Shown in pieces: positions 457 through 1,179 of a stretch of 64,000 bases of DNA. The translations under genes were made by a program, and so were the position numbers. Origin of the DNA: Leclercia sp. LSNIH1 (GTDB lineage Bacteria > Pseudomonadota > Gammaproteobacteria > Enterobacterales > Enterobacteriaceae); assembly GCF_002902985.1 (NCBI RefSeq), contig NZ_CP026167.1, forward strand, positions 2,790,001 through 2,854,000, written 5' to 3'. Every line of letters begins with the position of its first letter. Position 1 is the stretch's first letter. The notes below the pieces were generated by a model, which was given only the letters and a program-made list of their open reading frames with translations, was not told where the DNA came from and ran no database searches.

Positions 457-1131
457 TTAACGTAATTCGAAAAGATAGCCCTGCCCGCGCACGGTGGTGA
501 TGACATCCTCCGGGTACTGCGCCTGAATTTTTTTACGCAGACGGCCCATCAGAACATCGATGGTATGGCTTTCGCGCAGCTCTGCATCAGGGTAGAGCTG
601 GAGCATCAGGGAATCTTTGCTCACCACCTTGCCGCTGTTACGGATCAGCGTCTCCATAATGGTGTACTCAAAGGCCGTCAGCTTAATCACCTCGTCATTT
701 ATCGCCAGTTCGCGACGGGAGAGATCGACCTGAAACGGCGGAATGGAGATCACCTGCGAGGCCAGACCGCTGTTGCGGCGCATCAACGCCTGCATGCGGG
801 CGGCAACCTCTTCAATATGGAAGGGTTTGGTGACGTAGTCATCGGCACCGGCGCTGAGCACTTCAACCTTATCCTGCCAGCCTTCGCGGGCGGTTAACAC
901 CAGCACCGGCAAAGAGACATCGTGGCTGCGCCAGCGGCGGATCAGCGACAGACCATCTTCATCAGGCAGACCCAGGTCAACGATGGCGATATCGGGCAGA
1001 TGTTCATTGAGATAGTAATCGGCTTCTTTGGCATCTTCAGCATCATCCACCTGATGCCCCATTTCCTGAAGCTGAACTTTCAGGTGATGACGTAGCAACG
1101 CATTATCCTCAACAACCAGTACGCGCATCAT
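457..1131 (-). CDS. phoP: PhoP response regulator
   Basis: Complete 224-residue OmpR/PhoB-type regulator: receiver domain (about 1-115) with the phosphoacceptor in IVDLGLPDEDG and the conserved lysine in VTKPFH, then a winged-helix DNA-binding domain ending in VRGQGYLFELR. It controls the Mg2+/peptide-stress regulon and normally activates its own promoter. Two adjacent ATG codons are available; the first (MMRVLVVEDN) follows a good AGGGAGAAG ribosome site, as in Salmonella. Only 27 bp separate the start codon from the prophage 1 attachment core, so its normal upstream control region has been moved away (see the attachment-site entries). Confidence 0.98.
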   Translation of the reverse strand: MMRVLVVEDNALLRHHLKVQLQEMGHQVDDAEDAKEADYYLNEHLPDIAIVDLGLPDEDGLSLIRRWRSHDVSLPVLVLTAREGWQDKVEVLSAGADDYVTKPFHIEEVAARMQALMRRNSGLASQVISIPPFQVDLSRRELAINDEVIKLTAFEYTIMETLIRNSGKVVSKDSLMLQLYPDAELRESHTIDVLMGRLRKKIQAQYPEDVITTVRGQGYLFELR

Positions 1132-1158
1132 CGCTTCTCCCTAATATGAATGGTCAGA

Positions 1159-1179
1159 GTAGTTTAACGCTGATTATGT
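1159..1179. repeat. Prophage 1 attachment site at the phoP side (attL core)
   Basis: A 21-bp sequence containing TAGTTTAACGCTGATTATGT is repeated exactly at 44909-44929. The two copies bound a complete lambdoid prophage whose integrase gene lies 24 bp inside this copy. On the minus strand the core reads ACATAATCAGCGTTAAACT. This corresponds to the -10 element and transcription start of the PhoP-dependent phoPQ promoter as I remember it from E. coli (CATAATCAACGCTAGACT). The attachment core therefore coincides with a host promoter element. Confidence 0.9.

Follow-up and report, generated by a model that had tools for sequence, protein, structure and literature searches.

Prophages are already known to rewire two-component systems by their position. 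The nearest precedent is the lambdoid phage HK022, whose attachment site lies in the torS/torT two-component control region of Escherichia coli (Carey et al. 2019, PMC6814406). As described there, the integrase gene is the last of the prophage and runs outward into the regulator gene, whose native promoters are either cut off from it or ablated, and many related prophages occupy this site; in the lysogen the native start sites are unused and torS is driven by a phage promoter without clear hexamers. Prophage position can likewise control a virulence-related host function in the phiSa3int phages at hlb and in other active-lysogeny switches, where excision could restore that function. Here we analysed a prophage in the promoter of the phoPQ two-component operon, within a 64,000-nucleotide stretch of Leclercia sp. 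LSNIH1 (contig NZ_CP026167.1, positions 2,790,001 to 2,854,000; hereafter the window). In the Salmonella phoP promoter, as described, a single directly oriented PhoP box precedes the predicted -10 by ~12 nt (architecture I, predicted class II); 58 bp around the start suffice for Mg2+ control (PMC3335776). Of the PhoP regulon links, only two are reported to be conserved across all ten enterics examined, and phoPQ autoregulation is one of them (PMC2650801).

As judged from its sequence, the locus matches HK022/torS in anatomy (Table 1). A complete-looking prophage of ~43.7 kb, bounded by a perfect 21-bp repeat, separates phoP from purB. Its integrase is the last phage gene before phoP, reads outward and is co-directional with phoPQ, with its stop codon 71 bp ahead of phoP. 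As in the HK022 case (PMC6814406), the bacterial attachment site (attB) has the native regulatory site on one side and the regulator gene on the other. Within the window there are exactly two copies of the attachment core GTAGTTTAACGCTGATTATGT, directly oriented and one at each prophage end (1159-1179 and 44909-44929); empty sites have a single copy. Read on the minus strand, both copies are ACATAATCAGCGTTAAACTAC, each with the hexamer CATAAT. Joining the two flanks in a script produced an empty site with the same layout as prophage-free species. The purB-phoP adjacency of this empty site is present in relatives, and the joined flanks and the real empty sites of relatives share the Salmonella-type arrangement of box and -10. 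The initial annotation, made from the window sequence, had placed the prophage in the PhoP-dependent phoPQ promoter, with the PhoP box left at 44941-44957; its coordinates and description were correct.

Its proposal of a 21-bp attachment core stood in part. The repeat is indeed perfect, but the two junctions of relatives diverge after CATAATCAGCGTTA, continuing with AAACTA at the phoP side and often with GACTG at the purB side. Because of this divergence, the recombination exchange point probably lies inside the 14 bp of CATAATCAGCGTTA, the 21-bp identity being a property of this particular phage and host pair. RNA folding of the junction was not special (z 0.56). A 12-bp inverted repeat (AACTGATTTTAT / ATAAAATCAGTT) is found at window positions 44857-44906, just inside the right end of the prophage and near the attachment core.

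The regulatory elements are distributed unequally between the two junctions. On the minus strand, the purB side reads GGTTTACGAAATGTTTA (44957-44941), 12 bp, CATAAT (44928-44923); the PhoP box is therefore where the initial annotation had left it, and its position ~12 nt upstream of the -10 is that of empty sites (architecture I, class II layout). The phoP side reads TTCAGG (1201-1196), 17 bp, CATAAT (1178-1173), and then phoP at 1131. PhoP boxes were scored as letters matched of 12 at a spacing of 11-13 from the -10, with the pattern given in the initial annotation, whose placement agrees with PMC3335776. The best score at the phoP side of the window was 5/12, in keeping with the earlier claim that the -10 is joined there to phage DNA devoid of a PhoP box. 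Lysogen junctions in general scored 4-6/12, and so lack the layout at functional spacing, against 11-12/12 for prophage-free promoters; 2000 first-order resampled sequences scored 1-10, mostly 3-6. A score of 8 at locus L184 resulted from a -10 misplaced by the script, and L075 (CACAAT) was likewise given a misplaced -10. A replacement PhoP box was considered for lysogens and for decayed remnants of the element and rejected, since rows of both kinds scored 4-6/12 at functional spacing.

Table 1. Features of the phoPQ prophage locus (window coordinates, unless a locus is named)
Feature	Position	Strand	Remarks
phoQ, 5' part	1..456	-	start at window 456; continues past window edge
phoP, response regulator, 224 aa	457..1131	-	Response_reg and Trans_reg_C domains
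Attachment core, phoP-side junction	1159..1179	-	perfect 21-bp repeat; like junctions in 57 loci
-10 hexamer CATAAT, phoP-side copy	1173..1178	-	taken as P1 -10 by analogy with Salmonella (PMC3335776)
Candidate -35 TTCAGG	1196..1201	-	phage-derived, weak (3/6); 17-bp spacer to CATAAT
Tyrosine integrase, 429 aa	1203..2492	-	Arm-DNA-bind_2 and Phage_integrase domains; reads towards phoP
71-aa open reading frame (ORF)	2489..2704	-	overlaps integrase start; excisionase candidate by position only
Prophage body	1180..44908		PHROGs matches (20 ORFs run)
Attachment core, purB-side junction	44909..44929	-	perfect 21-bp repeat
-10 hexamer CATAAT, purB-side copy	44923..44928	-	reads into prophage end
PhoP box GGTTTA-N5-TGTTTA	44941..44957	-	stranded 43.7 kb from phoP
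purB (adenylosuccinate lyase)	45002..46375	-	Lyase_1 and ASL_C; upstream neighbour of phoP in empty site
130-aa gene of remnant genomes	L186:699-1091; copies in L180-L183, L194, L196	opposite strand

Occupation of this site is recurrent in the window's own genus. We searched 61 species-representative genomes for the box-core pattern at up to 3 mismatches. A box-core site with 0-2 mismatches was present in 54; the remaining seven gave only unrelated 3-mismatch matches or none. In 45/61 the PhoP box lies directly upstream of phoP with no element at the site (20 viewed directly, 5 in a purB-phoP comparison and 20 by coordinate comparison), the box of one intact site (G023) matching 11/12. The comparison with prophage-free relatives proposed in the initial annotation thus gave the arrangement it had predicted, with the core between box and phoP in 45/45 genomes. 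The other 16 genomes have no PhoP box at phoP, and every one of them carries the phage integrase, whole or decayed: in nine, all or part of this integrase adjoins phoP (G000, G014, G018, G021, G032, G034, G035, G039, G049), and decayed remnants are found in seven (G022, G027, G028, G030, G038, G040, G045). Wherever the phoP junction of an occupied or decayed site was read, the comparison shows no PhoP box at functional spacing. The box lies from ~7 kb (G039) to 53 kb (G035) from the phoP-side core, and on a different contig in G034.

These sites bear on the idea, raised in the initial annotation, of a reversible switch by active lysogeny, in which phoPQ autoregulation is lost on lysogeny and regained by programmed excision. 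Such a switch would fit the perfect, directly oriented core repeats, the open integrase gene of the window and the nearly full-length match, without internal stops, of 6/9 integrases at phoP in the genus. However, the integrases of G021, G039 and G049 are truncated or interrupted and seven more genomes hold remnants only, so that the integrase is broken or decayed in 10/16 occupied sites. Loss of the box looks permanent for this reason, and a reversible switch is unlikely at these ten sites. In G021 (L155, L156), moreover, phoP and its stranded box are 1.1 Mb apart on opposite strands; this suggests a chromosomal inversion through the prophage. The window's own assembly holds only two core copies, limited searches found no excised form, and no junction resembling a phage attachment site (attP) was present in viral contigs, using a GACT-type right-arm pattern that would miss this window's own phage. 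Programmed switching therefore appears improbable to us as a general account. A further difference from phiSa3int at hlb is that the coding region is untouched here and only regulatory input changes.

The same type of junction was found outside the genus. In a set of 115 loci, some genomes being represented by two, phoP directly follows the integrase in 57, with 46 distinct 125-base junction sequences. Loci lacking phoP mostly end at the integrase stop or carry integrases at most 72% identical. In a collection of named genomes, phoP adjoins the integrase in 8/11 matches (Citrobacter gillenii, C. werkmanii, C. braakii, C. portucalensis, two other Citrobacter, Enterobacter mori and Lelliottia nimipressuralis); the other three have integrases 41-72% identical, not next to phoP. 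A family sample of 392 genomes, only 5 of them from the window's own genus, yielded the junction pattern in six genomes and 3/154 genera, as a pattern match, with phoP checked in two of the six. An assembly or annotation artefact has a negligible probability, like junctions being present in many independent genomes and in viral contigs, with host-specific sequence on the phoP side.

No close known phage was identified, all 312 records with a matching integrase being below 60% identity, and none of 5426 E. coli genomes holds at least 80% of window positions 1-2700 in one place. A search by title or abstract start, with subscription papers mostly outside it, returned no paper on a prophage in the phoP promoter. 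In one paper, the genes listed for predicted S. Choleraesuis prophages include phoP and phoQ (PMC10969437), which might reflect a similar neighbour.

We interpret these data as recurrent rewiring by prophages that takes phoPQ away from self-activation, often irreversibly; we give this reading a probability of about 0.8. On this account, the attB of a lambdoid temperate phage clade would be the autoregulated phoPQ promoter in Enterobacter, Citrobacter and their near relatives. As the sequence shows, exchange inside CATAATCAGCGTTA leaves the -10, start-site and ribosome-binding regions with phoPQ and moves the box to the other prophage end. Lysogens would lose direct PhoP activation of phoPQ, and the operon would then be transcribed independently of PhoP from the phage-host junction, with a phage A/T-rich arm and weak -35 and the host -10; read-through from the co-directional integrase operon would be an alternative or added source. 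Once the integrase has decayed, the rewiring would be permanent, not a switch. The anatomy, read directly from genomes, is certain and recurrent; a regulatory effect on phoPQ in lysogens is likely.

The Salmonella literature is consistent with such an effect. Deletion of the phoP PhoP box is reported to phenocopy a phoP mutant in low Mg2+, with growth impaired as it is without phoP (PMC2650801). From this work and that of PMC3335776, lysogens are expected to lose box-driven autoregulation of phoPQ. Earlier work cited in PMC4778762 found Salmonella attenuated in mice once P1 was lost. As in the designed deletion, phoPQ is kept and its PhoP box lost, but here the change is natural and phage-made, with phage DNA in place of the box. 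The locus differs from HK022 in its target, the phoPQ operon, in the loss of the regulator's own activation site and hence of positive feedback, and in its decayed remnants, with apparently permanent loss in several species. Substitute transcription, demonstrated for HK022 (PMC6814406), is inferred here.

Several observations weigh against rewiring of phoPQ, or against parts of it. The exact box-core pattern, with no mismatches allowed, is found in only 5/8 named occupied genomes (7/49 with this integrase, the other two being among 41 mostly trimmed viral records). Box-like sites also occur farther from phoP. A scan within 600 bp gave 8-9/12 in lysogens with a nearly complete integrase and up to 10-11 in remnants; eight remnant rows have a reverse-strand site of 10-11/12 at 177-465 bp before phoP, and L036 has a forward site of 10/12. 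Sites of at least 10/12 were present in 36/300 resampled sequences as well, and the far matches in remnants look like integrase codons (STVNKQ). The phoP junction of the window had no match in a 9-of-12 sigma-70 test (0.5 expected), the -35 matches 2-4/6 across lysogens and remnants, and conservation of the phage arm in remnants consists of few indels, not fewer substitutions. Finally, Salmonella phoP has a constitutive P2 promoter (PMC4778762).

The P2 promoter also favours a neutral insertion site, where PhoPQ output stays normal through a secondary promoter, read-through or post-transcriptional control, and a conserved sequence simply serves the phage as a target. In line with this, phoP is 96-100% identical and open in 12/12 genomes compared, 7 of them remnant-bearing, and boxless phoPQ persists in the seven remnant species. 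Both phoP and phoQ are open in this genome, where phoQ encodes an uninterrupted 487 aa (locus L193), and in remnant genomes G022 and G045. The low-Mg2+ phenotype of Salmonella box loss and the conservation of PhoP control of phoPQ in all ten enterics studied (both PMC2650801) argue against neutrality, which we regard as possible but doubtful.

In the three Citrobacter genomes G063, G065 and G066 (L034, L036, L039), which have the integrase or its remains at phoP, the exact box-core pattern is found nowhere in the genome. The stranded box may have been changed or lost there.

How phoPQ would be transcribed from the junction was considered with the sigma-70 consensus as reference. Most lysogen rows have a -35 of 3-4/6 at 17-bp spacing. 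The phage arm presents a TTCAGG, TTCATG or TTCATA hexamer 17 bp from CATAAT, with an A/T-rich stretch ahead, and TTCATA with CATAAT amounts to 9/12 by hexamer count in some relatives. Since the window has no 9-of-12 match and the -35 is poor across rows, a substitute promoter is unproven, and a strong hybrid promoter at the junction is unsupported for this window. No terminator was predicted in the integrase-phoP gap on that strand, the sole terminator-like site of the scan lying inside the integrase gene on the other strand. The exonuclease gene upstream of the integrase also points towards phoPQ. Because both genes have this orientation, read-through is possible and phage transcription may run into phoPQ.

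In the remnant genomes, integrase fragments precede phoP, and the purB-phoP gap is 865-953 bp in five of the seven, against 123-125 bp in five intact genomes of the same comparison. At eight remnant junctions the integrase is eroded, and the last ~50 bp of phage arm before the -10 are kept almost without indels. In five related remnants, identity is 0.83-0.97 at -49 to +11 versus 0.82-0.92 in the integrase remnant at -269 to -189. The kept arm weakly fits use as a phoPQ promoter; as proof of promoter function its conservation is weak, since substitutions are not clearly rarer near phoP. A 130-aa opposite-strand gene between purB and phoP, whose L186 copy matched no Pfam family, is common to G022, G027, G028, G030, G038 and G040. 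This shared gene suggests that the remnants of these six species derive from one old insertion.

The purB-side junction raises the converse possibility of promoter capture, in which the intact PhoP-dependent promoter passes to the prophage right end and PhoP drives cargo, or an antisense RNA, in lysogeny. Box and -10 are intact there and point into the right end, no terminator was predicted at this end in the window, and in several relatives cargo genes of the same direction begin 235-983 bp downstream. This cargo varies, however: SRAP, DUF2971, TetR with a 329-aa protein, Glyco_transf_9 and an AAA-like protein (below Pfam's cut-off) were found, and the right-end stretch seen of L158, L165, L166 and L171 had no same-direction ORF of 100 aa. 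In the window itself, annotated right-end genes run against the box promoter (UmuD-like, 44424-44741, and others). Cargo may also have its own promoters; one promoter-like match on the same strand lies just inside the window's right end (44891-44862; 0.6 expected by chance). Capture seems unlikely. An SRAP-family gene reading away from the box junction recurs at right ends (L146, L148, L156, L161, L163, L170, L172, L173), by Pfam in L146 and L172 and by the same protein start in the others, L146 and L163 being the same place.

A more far-reaching form of the rewiring of phoPQ is tentative. The phage arm would have become a domesticated phoPQ promoter, turning the self-amplifying circuit of the main Mg2+- and peptide-sensing regulator into one free of feedback in roughly one in four of the sampled species of a genus, and the phage end would gain the native PhoP-driven promoter for cargo; this would have occurred repeatedly, and often permanently, in Enterobacter and Citrobacter. 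Sister species with and without feedback, phage-made and partly fixed, would allow positive feedback in a two-component system to be tested without engineering. A central regulator of virulence and antimicrobial-peptide response would join the circuits that may be rewired by nothing more than the position of a prophage, and models carried over from Salmonella may fail in many strains of Enterobacter and Citrobacter.

The gene content of the prophage body, assigned with PHROGs, includes an exonuclease, repressor, CII-like protein, replication proteins, endolysin, terminase, portal, tape measure and tail genes, with packaging, head, lysis and tail modules all present. A further integrase, of the lambda type (51708-52841), is encoded near icd (49455-50705), within window positions 49455-52841, and probably marks another prophage at the icd site, ~4.5 kb past the far end of the first. 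Inside the phoP prophage, at window positions 10713-14231, a C-5 cytosine methylase on the plus strand faces a Methyltransf_35 protein and a HATPase_c_3 protein on the minus strand, possibly a cargo or defence-like group.
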